A stretch of DNA of 64,000 nucleotides. Source: Nocardia nova SH22a (GTDB lineage: Bacteria; Actinomycetota; Actinomycetes; Mycobacteriales; Mycobacteriaceae). How positions within the stretch are numbered: the stretch's first letter is position 1; every line of letters begins with the position of its first letter. The stretch is from the NCBI RefSeq assembly GCF_000523235.1, contig NZ_CP006850.1, forward strand, positions 434,001-498,000, in the 5' to 3' direction. A program made the position numbers and the translations under genes. The notes beneath the pieces are model-generated. The model saw only the letters and a program-made list of their open reading frames with translations. It had not been told where the DNA came from and ran no database searches. Shown in pieces: positions 22,824-52,714 of the stretch.

Positions 22824-23027
22824 ATGACCGAAGTGGAGACGACCGGTTCGTTGAAGGCGCGAGTGCGCGCGAAGATGCTGCGTCAGCTGAACGAGGACGG
22901 CGCACCCGACCCCGAACAGGACGACCCGCGGCAGATCGCGATCGAGAACGATCTCGAGGCACTGGATTCCGTCACCGACGGCGATCCGCTGGTAGAGGAG
23001 CTGGCCGCGCGCTACCTCGTTCCCTGA
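22824..23027 (+). CDS. Small acidic protein, unknown
   Basis: 67 residues, highly charged, with no signal or membrane segment: MTEVETTGSLKARVRAKMLR, then an Asp/Glu/Pro-rich middle and EELAARYLVP. It is compact and in step with the preceding gene (17-base gap). I recognise no family. Its end overlaps the 3' end of the desulfurase gene on the other strand by 16 bases. Confidence 0.6.
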   Translation: MTEVETTGSLKARVRAKMLRQLNEDGAPDPEQDDPRQIAIENDLEALDSVTDGDPLVEELAARYLVP

Positions 23028-24490
23028 GGAGTCGCGCAGGGTGCGGCGCCCGAACTCGATTCGGTGAGTCCCGGCCGGGTCTCCGGCAGCGGGGACCACT
23101 GTCCGTCGGCACGGGTGTAGTTCCAGCGGGCCCCGTCCCGGACCAATCGCCGCAGGGCGTCGATCAGACGGTCCACATCGGCGACCGAGGTGCCCAGGCC
23201 GACGCTCGCGCGCACGGCCCCGTCCACATTCAGCCGCCGTAGCAGCGGATGTGCGCAGAACTTGCCGTCGCGCACGCCGATGCCGTATTCCGCCGACAGA
23301 TATGCCGCCACCCGGCCCGGCTCGAATCCGTCGATCGTGAAGGCGACGATGCCGACACTGTCGGCGCTGTCGTCGAAGATGCGCAGACTATGAAGTCCGG
23401 CAATGCTTTCCAGCCCGTCACGCAGTCGCTCGATCAGGTGGTGTTCGTGGTCGACCACGGCGTGGGCGTCCAATTCGGCCAGCGCCTCGCAGGCGGCCGC
23501 GACCGCCGCGGCGCCCAGCACATTCGGTGAACCCGCCTCGTGCCGCTGCGGTGCGCAGGCCCACCGGGCATCCTCGGTGGTCACAGCGGTCACCGCACCG
23601 CCACCAGCCAGATACGGCGGCGCCGCGTCCAGCCAGTCGCGACGGCCGACCAGCACTCCGGCGCCGAACGGGGCGTACAGCTTGTGGCCGGAGAAGGCCA
23701 GGTAGTCGATGCCGCCGGATTCCACCGCACAGCCCTGGAGGTCGATGCGGCGATGCGGGGCCAACTGGGCCGCGTCGACCAGGATGCGCGCGCCGCGGCG
23801 GTGCGCGATCGCGGTCAGTTCCGCCAGCGGCAGCACCTCACCGGTCACATTCGACGCGCCCGTAACGGCAAGCAGCGCAGCGGGTTCGGCGCACAGTTCG
23901 GCCTCGATCCGCCGCAGCGTCTCGGCGATGGTGCTCGCGGCACGCACCACCCGGCGGCCGCCGCGGGTCCACGGCAGGAAGTTCGCGTGATGTTCGATGT
24001 CGAGAACCACGGTGTCGCCGGGGACGCAGCAGGCCAGCAGATTCAGCGAATCGGTGGTGTTGCGGGTGAAGACGACGACCTGATCGTCGGCCGCGTTCAC
24101 CGCGCGGGCCACCGAATTCCGCGCGGCCTCATAGCAATCGGTGCTGACGCGGGAGGCGTATCCGGCGCCGCGATGCACGCTGGCGTAGAAGGGCAGCAGT
24201 TCGTTCACCCGGTCGGTGACCTGGGCGAGGGCGGGGGCGCTGGCGGCGTAGTCGAAGTTGGCGTAGGTGCGGAAACCGCCCTGCACCAACGGAACTCGCA
24301 GATCGCAGCCGGACACCCGGGCGATCGGCTCGCCGGTGCGGCAGGCGCGGGTCGCGTTGCTGTCGCATGCCGACGCGGAGCACGAGGTGCAGGTGCAGGT
24401 GGGGCTGGTGCAGGTGGATTCGTCGCAAATCTGTTCTGCGACAGCGATTTCGGCGGTAGCGACGACGGTTTTCGACACGACAGTGCTCAT
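23012..24490 (-). CDS. SufS-like cysteine desulfurase with Cys-rich N-terminal leader
   Basis: 492-residue class V aminotransferase-fold PLP enzyme. The PLP Lys is K270 in SGHKLYAPFGAG, with His168 and Asp239 as expected. GVRDGKFCAHPLLRRL matches the SufS/CsdA loop RxGHHCAxPLL, so Cys412 is the likely persulfide residue: group II cysteine desulfurase chemistry (Cys to Ala plus sulfane sulfur). The first 65 residues are an extra leader holding eight Cys (22, 27, 32, 34, 37, 42, 50, 62), unusual for the family. The ATG at 24490 follows AAGGGG. A SAM-IV riboswitch lies upstream, tying expression to methionine/SAM status. No suf genes are adjacent. Confidence 0.85.
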   Translation of the reverse strand: MSTVVSKTVVATAEIAVAEQICDESTCTSPTCTCTSCSASACDSNATRACRTGEPIARVSGCDLRVPLVQGGFRTYANFDYAASAPALAQVTDRVNELLPFYASVHRGAGYASRVSTDCYEAARNSVARAVNAADDQVVVFTRNTTDSLNLLACCVPGDTVVLDIEHHANFLPWTRGGRRVVRAASTIAETLRRIEAELCAEPAALLAVTGASNVTGEVLPLAELTAIAHRRGARILVDAAQLAPHRRIDLQGCAVESGGIDYLAFSGHKLYAPFGAGVLVGRRDWLDAAPPYLAGGGAVTAVTTEDARWACAPQRHEAGSPNVLGAAAVAAACEALAELDAHAVVDHEHHLIERLRDGLESIAGLHSLRIFDDSADSVGIVAFTIDGFEPGRVAAYLSAEYGIGVRDGKFCAHPLLRRLNVDGAVRASVGLGTSVADVDRLIDALRRLVRDGARWNYTRADGQWSPLPETRPGLTESSSGAAPCATPQGTR

Positions 24491-24511
24491 CGGGACAATC
24501 CCCTTGTTCAG

Positions 24512-24542
24512 GGACTCCGGATGTGGAGGATGAACGGAGTCC
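24512..24542 (-). promoter_or_regulatory. Hairpin between riboswitch and desulfurase start
   Basis: On the minus strand GGACTCCG pairs with CGGAGTCC around a 15-base pyrimidine-rich loop, 22 bases before the ATG. A second tiny pairing GGGGA-TTG-TCCC covers the ribosome site. Together they could form the expression platform of the SAM-IV element. Mechanism inferred. Confidence 0.5.
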
Positions 24543-24544
24543 GC

Positions 24545-24653
24545 GCTTGCCGTGCTCGGTCGAGCAACGGCCAGGTCGTCACCCGGAGCACCCCACCGCG
24601 GAGGAGGGTTGCCGACCAGCGAGCCGGGGCTTGATGCTGGCACTCATGACCTG
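24545..24653 (-). ncRNA. SAM-IV riboswitch
   Basis: The minus-strand RNA reads CAGGTCATGAGTGCCAGC, then AAGCCCCGGC, GCTGGTCGGCAACCCTCC, CGCGGTGGGGTGCTCCGGG and TGACGACCTGG. It matches the actinobacterial SAM-IV consensus nearly throughout, including the P1 pair CAGGTC/GACCTG. The 3' hairpin GCTCGACCGAGC typical of the class is also present. SAM binding would turn off the downstream desulfurase, as known for other SAM-IV elements. Confidence 0.92.
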
Positions 24654-50661: not shown

Positions 50662-51456
50662 ATGCTGCTGACGATCGACGTCCGCAACACCAGTATCGAG
50701 ATCGGCCTGTTCTCGGGGAACGGGTCGCACGCGGAACTGGCACATACCTGGCGGGTGCACACCAACCCGCTGCTCACCGCCGACGAATTCGCCATGCAGG
50801 TGCGCGGCCTGGTGGGTGATCGGCTGGATCAGGTGATCGGTGTGTCGGCGCTGTCCACGGTGCCGCCGGTGCTGCGCGAACTGCGGGCGATGCTGGAGCG
50901 GTACTGGTCGCATGTGCCGCACGTTCTCGTGGAACCCGGTGTGCGAACAGGGATTCCGCTGTTGGTGGACAATCCCAAAGAGGTCGGCGCCGACCGGATC
51001 GTGAACTGCCTCGCCGCCTATCACCGGTTCGATTCACCGGCGATCGTGGTCGATTTCGGCACCGCCATCTGTGTCGATCTGGTGTCGGCGAAGGGCGAAT
51101 TCCTCGGCGGCACAATCGCTCCCGGTGTGGAGATCTCCACCGAGGCGCTCGTGGCCCGCAGTGCGCTGCGGCGCGCTGAACTCACCCGGCCGCGGTCGGT
51201 GGTGGGCAAGAACAGCATGGAGTGCATGCAGTCCGGTGCGGTGTTCGGATTCGCCGGTCTGGTGGACGGCCTGATCGACCGGATCCGCGACGAACTCGAC
51301 GCCTTCGCCGGTGACGATGTCTCGGTGGTCGCCACCGGCCCGACCGCGCCGCTGATCGTGCCGGAATCGGAGACGATCGATCATCACGAGCCGCATCTGA
51401 CCCTGGACGGTCTGCGCCTGGTGTACGAGCGCAACCAGCAGCGCCGCCGTCCATGA
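50662..51456 (+). CDS. coaX: Type III pantothenate kinase
   Basis: 264-residue ASKHA-fold kinase for the first CoA step. The phosphate motif is [12 protein letters not shown], with Arg where Gly is usual. [28 protein letters not shown] and [11 protein letters not shown] follow. Last gene of the pantothenate operon. Confidence 0.95.
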
Positions 51457-51487
51457 CCGGCCGGTTGTGTGGTGACGCACACCGCGG

Positions 51488-51515
51488 TTGCGCGGCGGGA
51501 ACGCCCTGCTAAACT
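51488..51515 (+). promoter_or_regulatory. Promoter of the Cys-leader/cysteine dioxygenase operon
   Basis: TTGCGC, 16 bases, then TAAACT at 51510-51515. The leader GTG begins 8 bases after the -10 element, the right distance for transcription to start at the GTG itself (leaderless). The -35 is weak. Confidence 0.55.
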
Positions 51516-51522
51516 TCGACTC

Positions 51523-51564
51523 GTGACTTTCCGCGTGAGCACCCAGGAGTGTTGTCGAGGCTGA
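51523..51564 (+). CDS. Leaderless 13-residue leader peptide with Cys-Cys
   Basis: The ORF reads VTFRVSTQECCRG then TGA, starting GTG. It has no ribosome site and lies 7 bases after a -10 box, as in leaderless genes. Tandem TGT-TGT codons at 51550-51555 are followed by Arg, Gly and stop. Poly-cysteine leaderless short ORFs that sense cysteine supply have been described upstream of sulfur genes in mycobacteria; this one fits that class. The peptide itself probably has no function. Confidence 0.75.
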   Translation: MTFRVSTQECCRG

Positions 51565-51629
51565 TTCGCCTCGGCTGATGTTCGAGGCTGCGTACCCGCC
51601 CTCGATCATCCGCAACTCCTGGAGCCTCG
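51556..51629 (+). promoter_or_regulatory. Four-segment attenuator with SD sequestration
   Basis: Segment 1 CGAGGC (51556-51561, the last leader codons), segment 2 GCCTCG (51568-51573), segment 3 CGAGGCT (51583-51589), segment 4 AGCCTCG (51623-51629). Pairs 1:2 or 2:3 and 3:4 are mutually exclusive. Segment 4 overlaps the ribosome site GGAG (51621-51624) of the gene at 51633. A ribosome stalled on the Cys codons would cover segment 1, let 2:3 form and free the site. Confidence 0.65.
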
Positions 51630-51632
51630 CTC

Positions 51633-52286
51633 ATGCGTTCCTCTGTTATCAACGCCGCTGCCACCTCGACAGGTGAGTCCGCTCGTCACCGTTCGGGCCA
51701 GCTTCCCCCGGTTCGTACCGGTAGCGCCCTCGCCGCGGAACTGGCCGAGCGTTCGGTCTCACCCGCATTGCCCACCCGCCTGCGCCCGGCCGATCTGCTG
51801 CGGCTCACCGACGAGGGCGCGGAGGACGTGCTGGCCGGTCGGTTCGACCACCTGCTGCCGTCCAGTGGTGTGTGGCCGACCGAAAACCGCTGGGCGGTAA
51901 GGCTTCTCGCCGACGACGAGGTCGATGTCTGGCTCATCAGCTGGGTTCCGGACAAGTACACCGAACTGCACGATCACGCCGGATCGCTCGGCGCGCTGAC
52001 GGTGCTCAGCGGTGCGCTGTCGGAATTCCGCTGGAATGGAAAGGAATTGCGCCAGCGCACCCTTTCCGCCGGTGATCAGGCTTCTTTCCCGCTCGGCTGG
52101 GTGCACGACGTGGTGCGTGCTCCCGACCAATTCGCGGGCGTTCCCGAACCGTCGAATCCGACATTGTCGGTGCACGCCTATTCACCACCCTTATCTGCCA
52201 TGTCCTATTACGAGGTGACCGGGCACGGGACGCTGCGGCGCACCCGCTCCGTGCTCACCGATCAGCCCGAAGGCGATGTGAAATGA
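51633..52286 (+). CDS. Cysteine dioxygenase family (cupin) protein
   Basis: 217-residue cupin of the CDO type I group. The metal motif is TELHDHAGSLGALTVL (His113, His115), with a further His in LGWVHDVV, and SVHAYSPPLSAMSYY near the end. CDO oxidises cysteine to its sulfinate; bacterial relatives may prefer other thiols. The first 45 residues are poorly conserved. It overlaps the rhodanese gene by ATGA. Expression is likely controlled by the Cys-leader attenuator. An identical pairing with rhodanese is common in actinobacteria. Confidence 0.9.
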   Translation: MRSSVINAAATSTGESARHRSGQLPPVRTGSALAAELAERSVSPALPTRLRPADLLRLTDEGAEDVLAGRFDHLLPSSGVWPTENRWAVRLLADDEVDVWLISWVPDKYTELHDHAGSLGALTVLSGALSEFRWNGKELRQRTLSAGDQASFPLGWVHDVVRAPDQFAGVPEPSNPTLSVHAYSPPLSAMSYYEVTGHGTLRRTRSVLTDQPEGDVK

Positions 52287-52714
52287 CGCACATGACCATC
52301 ACCGGCATGTTGGACGCGGCTCGTGCGCAGCTGAAACGCATGTACGCGTTCGAATTGCCGGAGGCCGTCGCGCGCGGCGCCCTGCTGGTCGATATCCGCC
52401 CGCAGGCCCAGCGGGTCCGGGAGGGCACGCTGCCGGGCGCGCTGGTCGTCGAACGCAATGTGCTGGAGTGGCGGCTCGACCCGACCAGCTCCGCGCGGCT
52501 GGCCCTGGCCACCGACCACGATCGGGAGTGGGTGGTGGTCTGCTCGGAGGGATACACCTCGAGTCTGGCCGCGGCGTCCCTGCAGCAATTGGGGCTGCAC
52601 CGGGCCACCGATCTGGTCGGTGGCTATCAGGCGGTGAAGGCCGCGGGACTGCTGTCGGTGGCCGCGGGGGCACCGCATCTGGCCGGTGAGATCAGCGCCC
52701 TGGTGTCGCTGTAA
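52283..52714 (+). CDS. Rhodanese-like sulfurtransferase
   Basis: 143-residue single rhodanese domain: LLVDIRPQAQRVREGTLPGA and the active loop VVCSEGYTSS with Cys87. It probably moves sulfane sulfur from or to the thiol dioxygenase product line; the coupling to the CDO gene by ATGA overlap supports a joint role in thiol catabolism or sulfur recycling. Confidence 0.93.
   Translation: MTHMTITGMLDAARAQLKRMYAFELPEAVARGALLVDIRPQAQRVREGTLPGALVVERNVLEWRLDPTSSARLALATDHDREWVVVCSEGYTSSLAAASLQQLGLHRATDLVGGYQAVKAAGLLSVAAGAPHLAGEISALVSL

Follow-up and report, generated by a model that had tools for sequence, protein, structure and literature searches.

The locus described here raises the question of what a 13-codon ORF carrying two consecutive cysteine codons does immediately in front of an operon annotated for the oxidation of cysteine. 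The operon lies between coaX (50662-51456) and lysS (52781 onwards) in the window, the whole stretch of 64,000 nucleotides analyzed from Nocardia nova SH22a, which is part of one 8.35-Mb chromosome. A preliminary description of this DNA, made from the sequence, had proposed a leaderless Cys-Cys leader ORF followed by four complementary segments, the last of which would sequester the ribosome site of the dioxygenase gene. Table 1 presents the features of the locus as they are understood after the comparative analysis.

Table 1. Coordinates of the operon genes, leader elements, and paired strands (positions in the window).
Feature	Position	Strand	Basis or remark
Extended -10-like element TGCTAAACT	51507..51515	+	7 nt before leader GTG; TAAACT at 51510-51515
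Leaderless-like leader ORF VTFRVSTQECCRG, 13 codons, stop TGA	51523..51564	+	sequence, conservation
P0 5' strand CGCGTGAGC, leader codons Arg-Val-Ser	51532..51540	+	pairs with 51629-51637
P1 5' strand CCAGGAGT, Gln-Glu codons	51543..51550	+	pairs with 51615-51622
Sensor codons TGT TGT (Cys-Cys)	51550..51555	+	invariant
P2 5' strand GTCGAGGC, segment 1 of the preliminary description	51554..51561	+	RNAalifold
P2 3' strand GCCTCGGC, segment 2 of the preliminary description	51568..51575	+	leader stop codon in hairpin loop
P3 5' strand TCGAGG, segment 3 of the preliminary description, accessory	51582..51587	+	A-U to G-C change
P3 3' strand CCTCGA, conserved partner of segment 3	51600..51605	+	RNAalifold, pair counts
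P1 3' strand ACTCCTGG, overlaps GG of SD	51615..51622	+	alignment; RNAalifold
Shine-Dalgarno-like GGAG (SD) of CDO gene	51621..51624	+	sequence; 8 nt before ATG 51633
P0 3' strand GCTCATGCG, contains CDO start codon	51629..51637	+	covariation, alignment
Cysteine dioxygenase type I homologue (CDO), 217 aa	51633..52286	+	PF05995, E 1.9e-9
Rhodanese-domain protein, 143 aa	52283..52714	+	PF00581, E 2.6e-11

The operon and its leader ORF

The best PDB matches of the first gene product are 8qfr (E 6e-12) and 8qfl, both named 'Cysteine dioxygenase', and the protein carries an HDH motif at residue 113, a VHD motif (with the H at about 158), and HAYSPP at 181; a comparison with NCBIfam returned no family at E 0.001. 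The ATG of the rhodanese gene (52283) overlaps the CDO stop codon as ATGA, and each of the 111 loci tested encodes a rhodanese relative on the same strand as CDO. The spacer between the SD and the CDO start is 8 nt in most compared loci. The same genome also harbors a CDO paralogue (3536050-3536373, minus strand, 36% identity) with a same-strand rhodanese and without a Cys-Cys leader.

The leader itself was confirmed letter for letter, including the GTG at 51523 seven bases after TAAACT, the 13 codons, the tandem TGT, and the CDO ATG at 51633. The TGT TGT pair, located near the end of the ORF, is invariant in all 88 aligned leaders. In the 87 Nocardia-type loci, the leader cysteines are encoded by TGT in 174 of 174 cases, versus 22 of 95 in 26 long ORFs of the window. 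A TANNNT box precedes the leader start by 7 nt in 81 of these loci and by 6 nt in the other 6, and column identity across 83 distinct sequences is 0.80 at this box versus 0.46 at positions -60 to -17. Five short ORFs (6-40 codons) begin 6-8 nt after a TANNNT in the 64-kb window, and only the VTFRVSTQECCRG ORF contains Cys-Cys. A sigma-70 scan found no two-box promoter upstream of the leader, an absence that an extended -10 element alone would explain. Transcription would start at the leader GTG (51523) itself.

Among 493 relatives, 80 loci fetched by protein were kept (79 from Nocardia, one from Antrihabitans), and all 80 harbor a Cys-Cys short ORF with a TANNNT before its start. The background in these loci is low: 38 of 2887 off-site 250-nt windows contain a Cys-Cys short ORF, and 2 of them also the TANNNT. 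The idea of a leaderless-like Cys-Cys leader is supported.

Predicted pairing of the leader with the dioxygenase start

At minimum free energy, 51523-51635 is predicted to form a three-way junction (z -4.95; none of 200 shuffles folded as well). RNAalifold, run on the 88 aligned leaders with no structure given to it, recovered P1, P2, and P3. Two of the four SD bases fall within P1, and P2 (together with P3 in Nocardia) is nested inside P0/P1. Across 80 distinct rows, pairing reaches 100% in P2, 97.7% in P3, and 99.2% and 81.0% in the two halves of P1, which is imperfect in a number of loci. P3 shows a double change from A-U to G-C in 11 of the 80 rows, with 7 rows unpaired at that position. 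In the wider set described below, the P3 columns are empty in 44-48 of the 58 distinct rows. Judging from these alignments, P3 is accessory and mainly a Nocardia feature, since letters are present in just 10-14 of the wider-set rows.

The conserved structure is, as the alignments predict it, the leader ORF paired with the translation start of CDO through P0 and P1, two helices over the ribosome site and the start codon that the preliminary description had missed. In 85 sequences that reach into the gene (78 distinct; L063, L066, and L090 excluded), 90.4% of the P0 and P1 cells are paired, with 2 double-change pairs, versus 29.5-51.5% for slid versions. In a second alignment of 60 sequences (58 distinct) made with the covariance model, and therefore fitted to the structure, with L187 in effect a training sequence, 90.2% of cells are paired versus 22.9-52.7% for slid versions. 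Double changes occur there at 16 of 30 pairs, in 64 cells versus 19.3 in shuffles, a control that is weakened, like all shuffle controls used, by the kinship of the sequences. RNAalifold on 28 leaders hand-chosen by the analyst from 56 newly fetched ones recovered P0 and P2, with four pairs showing double changes (UA-CG 6, AU-GC 4, AU-GC 3, and one single); it preferred small local pairs over P1, the 3' strand of which this alignment does not keep in register.

The first base of the CDO start codon offers a direct view of P0. In 132 distinct loci, the leader partner and the start base are T/A in 108, T/G in 8, C/G in 7, C/A in 4, and other combinations in 5. CDO starts with GTG in 18 of these loci, where the leader partner is C in 7, T in 8, and G in 3, whereas in the ATG loci it is T in 108, C in 4, and A or G in 2. 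Some changes from ATG to GTG are thus matched in the alignment by a T-to-C change in the leader, supporting P0. Swap tests used fixed offsets from the Cys codons and the start codon, with identical loci removed and with L228 and L240 (start not located) as well as L239 and L241 (no leader) excluded. In 50 loci outside the genus, P0 is paired at 78% overall and at 82-98% at seven inner positions, and own pairing is better than swaps (0/5000; 35 distinct pairs). Within the Nocardia set, own P0 pairing is no better than swaps (1076/5000). When leaders were swapped against ribosome-binding sites, the mean own energy was -26.50 versus -25.86 for permuted partners (0/2000), but own energy was better than the mean swap in no more than 49 of the 87 loci. 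Much of the conservation of P0/P1 has another cause, because these strands are also coding or part of the SD.

The coding role of the strands is relevant to a further explanation, in which the product of the ORF is a functional Cys-Cys peptide that acts in trans. The C-terminal ECCRG is indeed almost invariant across the Nocardia leader set; these residues coincide with the P1/P2 strands, however, variation in the N-terminal half has left its pairing largely intact, and loci from other families have different endings, so that such a peptide is extremely improbable. It is also very unlikely that the leader sets termination, intrinsic or Rho-dependent, before the operon. Rho has been suggested for mycobacterial cys leaders (PMC1262725), but a search for intrinsic terminators (hairpin plus U tract) before the first gene found no terminator-like site in 51400-52300, and the conserved pairing targets the SD and the start codon. 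The latter point supports control at the level of translation without a terminator, as had been proposed. At gathering score, Rfam gave no match at the leader, its matches in the whole window being a SAM-IV riboswitch and a tRNA.

The four-segment switch of the preliminary description has to be weighed against the same alignments. According to this proposal, stalling at the Cys codons lets segments 2 and 3 pair, which prevents segment 3 from pairing with segment 4, AGCCTCG (51623-51629), and blocking the SD. All four segments are present, and the 1:2 pairing corresponds to P2. Segment 4, however, is not conserved: of 79 distinct sequences, 44 lack its fifth pair and 23 its seventh, and its pairing percentage and covariation lie within shuffles (equalled by 223 and 94 of 500, respectively). 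Segment 3 has its conserved partner instead in the CCTCGA of P3, upstream of the SD, and the conserved block of the ribosome site is P0/P1. In the cross-genome comparison suggested as a check, the Cys codons are conserved and the pairing of segment 4 is not kept.

The 2:3 alternative can form in 79 of 79 distinct Nocardia-type sequences, largely because segments 1 and 3 are near-copies, and a C of segment 3 (alignment column 80), which by the analyst's reading has no P3 partner, is kept in 78 of 79, as would fit some role for 2:3. On the other hand, once segment 1 is removed the window RNA refolds to P3 rather than to 2:3. The emptiness of the P3 columns in most wider-set rows also makes 2:3 auxiliary at most. 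The complete four-segment switch is consequently unlikely, while 2:3 pairing may help in Nocardia.

The effect of a stalled ribosome was predicted as the cost of opening the RNA from SD-1 to ATG+2, with an assumed footprint that extends 18 nt upstream and 13 nt downstream of the first A-site base and with 10 shuffled leaders per locus. Over the 87 loci, the predicted cost is 14.8 kcal/mol for the free RNA; it falls to 9.6 when a ribosome occupies the first Cys codon, to 11.1 when one occupies the stop codon, and to 10.0 when the leader is shuffled. The free cost exceeds the stalled cost in 85 of 87 loci, by 3 or more in 62 of them. In L089, L090, L095, and L096 the costs are 10.2 and 5.3, with the effect present in three of the four. 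In computation, the ribosome site is covered by a structure that stalling would disrupt. The mean probability that GGAG is unpaired, a measure tried first on fragments cut at ATG+9 and applied to an SD of which P1 covers two of four bases, disagrees: it is 0.30 free and 0.17 stalled in the 87 loci, which goes against the model. Also counting against it, a window RNA truncated through 51566 is predicted to keep some of its SD inside a small hairpin of 4 bp. Both measures are predictions, and the opening cost was given more weight because it reflects the needs of an initiating ribosome.

Spread of the leader among genomes

In a survey of the order, the dioxygenase was detected in 82 of 298 genomes at E <= 1e-20, and upstream regions were compared in 70, the 12 distant ones being omitted. 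Family loci outside the genus harbor a Cys-Cys short ORF in 21 of 23 cases in a first set (L089-L111), the exceptions being L099, without a short frame, and L109, with one Cys followed by a stop. A further 16 family loci (L112-L127) yielded a Cys-Cys candidate in 14, with L112 less certain and none in L122 and L123. Elsewhere in the order, 24 loci outside the family (L128-L151) gave a candidate leader in L128, L141, and L147, and a fourth, in L133, is likely due to chance. The first three end in FDECCRPGN, FDECCR, and FDETCC, respectively. Within the class, the enzyme was detected in 63 of 296 genomes at E <= 1e-15, and 28 of the 41 outside the family were compared. Five of these loci (4 of 8 and 1 of 20), all from one genus (g111), carry an MRCCC ORF, which three other members of g111 do not have. 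This five-codon ORF (L162-L166), in another actinobacterial family, lies 63-72 nt before the dioxygenase match and is a Cys leader for this enzyme that is unrelated to the Cys-Cys one.

A covariance model trained on 85 sequences was used to scan the family genomes at E <= 0.1 with the stricter filters of Infernal. It gave a single match per genome in 66 of 151 genomes, covering 13 of 31 genera. Of 56 newly fetched matches, 54 have a leader with ECCRG or ECCQG, and two weak ones (L239 and L241) have no leader. Three of the new matches (L186-L188) are from the genus of the window, and over the stretch compared L187 is identical to L042 and L195 to L066. The leader is well conserved in Nocardia and recurs in other genera of its family.

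One large group of genomes (g2) is presumably Mycobacterium. No structure emerged when 29 Mycobacterium-type leaders were folded to a consensus. In a swap test of 28 of them (L109 skipped), own pairing scored -15.70 versus -14.51 for permuted partners (19/5000), which hints at pairing just upstream of the SD. Many leaders of this type, which occur among L091-L127, show, by eye, a hairpin after the Cys codons with the stop codon in or near the loop. The predicted opening cost in 17 loci is 7.0 free and 7.4 stalled, the free cost being higher in 5 of 17. These leaders possibly represent a different version of the switch, with pairing upstream of the SD rather than over it.

Proposed mechanism and place in sulfur metabolism

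The leader is probably a Cys-tRNA-sensing translational attenuator of the CDO-rhodanese operon. This reading draws on the ORF, the promoter-like box, the helices, their conservation and covariation, and the predicted energetics, from which we infer the transcript start, the stalling, the coupling, and the sign of the response. The transcript would begin at the leader GTG, and ribosomes would load on its 5' end and translate the 13-codon ORF. With plentiful Cys-tRNA they would pass fast, and between passages leader codons 4-10 would refold on the downstream gene, P0 and P1 with nested P2 (and P3 in Nocardia) hiding half of the SD and the CDO start codon. With Cys-tRNA in short supply, a ribosome would wait with TGT in its A site, on top of the 5' strands of P0 and P1. 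No stem would then form, and the dioxygenase would be translated, as would the rhodanese via the ATGA overlap. In the simplest reading, the sensor ORF is itself the blocking strand, and no 2:3 rearrangement is needed because the waiting ribosome covers the codons that form P0/P1.

Since such a ribosome would break P0/P1, the operon should be ON when Cys-tRNA is short. The same sign had been predicted from the four segments and is supported here as a prediction, and so is the remark that induction by starvation is odd for a cysteine-consuming enzyme. A weak or reversed response of the same anatomy, in which passing ribosomes hold the stem open and high leader translation drives expression, would suit a cysteine-degrading enzyme, and the predicted opening cost likewise falls, to 11.1, when a ribosome sits at the stop codon. 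Termination is normally brief, however, the invariant tandem Cys codons predict sensitivity to Cys-tRNA, and expression from the poly-cysteine leaderless ORFs of M. smegmatis studied by Canestrari in 2020 reportedly rises in cysteine limitation; such a response seems improbable. Avoidance of cysteine in the proteins was considered as support for the starvation-ON sign. CDO lacks any Cys in 81 and the rhodanese has a single one in 85 of the 87 Nocardia-type loci (counted from the aligned start), but this is neutral because the leader-free paralogue is similarly Cys-poor.

The leader joins a known kind, the poly-cysteine leaderless attenuators of mycobacteria, an assignment made by sequence and computation. 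The likeness, already pointed out in the preliminary description, holds for a short ORF with its Cys codons grouped towards the 3' end, the sulfur or cysteine genes downstream, and the proposed control of translation; the RTG start would be leaderless as well, with a TANNNT 6-7 nt upstream in 87 of 87 loci. Work on the M. smegmatis leaders is summarized in PMC9031893, according to which elongation speed depends on cysteine, and in PMC13236596; PMC9386245, PMC4340878, and PMC11133741 yielded nothing further. In Fig 7 of PMC4633059 (Shell 2015), Cys-rich leaderless uORFs precede cysA2, Rv0485, and nirA, whereas here the target is a dioxygenase and rhodanese operon. The present leader also differs in having just two Cys codons and in an ORF strand that covers the SD and start codon with covarying pairs. 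PMC9094748 mentions six predicted regulatory cysteine-rich sORFs. The cys leader peptides predicted in Actinobacteria (PMC1262725) share the Cys codons near the stop codon and the lack of a detected terminator; the mycobacterial regions treated there have no conserved terminator hairpins, whereas the leader described here has a conserved structure and precedes another operon. As in a classical trp-type transcription attenuator, the position of the ribosome on sensor codons would decide the RNA fold, but there is no terminator and the target is a translation start. A search of the open-licence PMC literature found no recognizable description of a leader before a cysteine dioxygenase. As far as checked, the target operon, the covarying start-codon stem, and the spread are new.

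A second poly-Cys leader is present in the same genome (L246/L248, about 667369-668139, minus strand), with a leaderless-like ORF VSTRRELMLTRRRTVDLCRLGGCCCLCM 7 nt downstream of a TAAACT. It ends in LGGCCCLCM and is followed first by a frame of at most 160 codons and next by a 277-codon double-rhodanese frame, an arrangement that resembles the cysA2 case of PMC4633059. The dioxygenase would therefore be co-induced with such genes. Under the filter used, the loci of the sulfite-reductase and PAPS-reductase families in this genome gave no leader. The SAM-IV riboswitch of the window (24538-24651, minus strand, 111.9 bits) overlaps the start of frame 23012-24643 (minus strand), which by its look encodes a putative class-V aminotransferase or cysteine desulfurase whose N-terminal region is unusually rich in Cys.

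The analysis provides a poly-cysteine leaderless attenuator with a compact covarying RNA structure in which the start codon of the target is itself paired, and extends attenuator control to a cysteine-oxidizing operon that Nocardia shares with further genera of its family. More tentatively, the dioxygenase-rhodanese pair could belong to a cysteine-starvation set, with a Cys-tRNA attenuator present in many genera inducing an enzyme annotated as cysteine-degrading. If this is true, the pair would recover sulfur from another thiol, a persulfide, or a cysteine derivative, and the annotation of this actinobacterial branch of dioxygenases would be misleading. The opposition between the starvation-ON prediction and the annotated function offers a clear test of the role of the dioxygenase.
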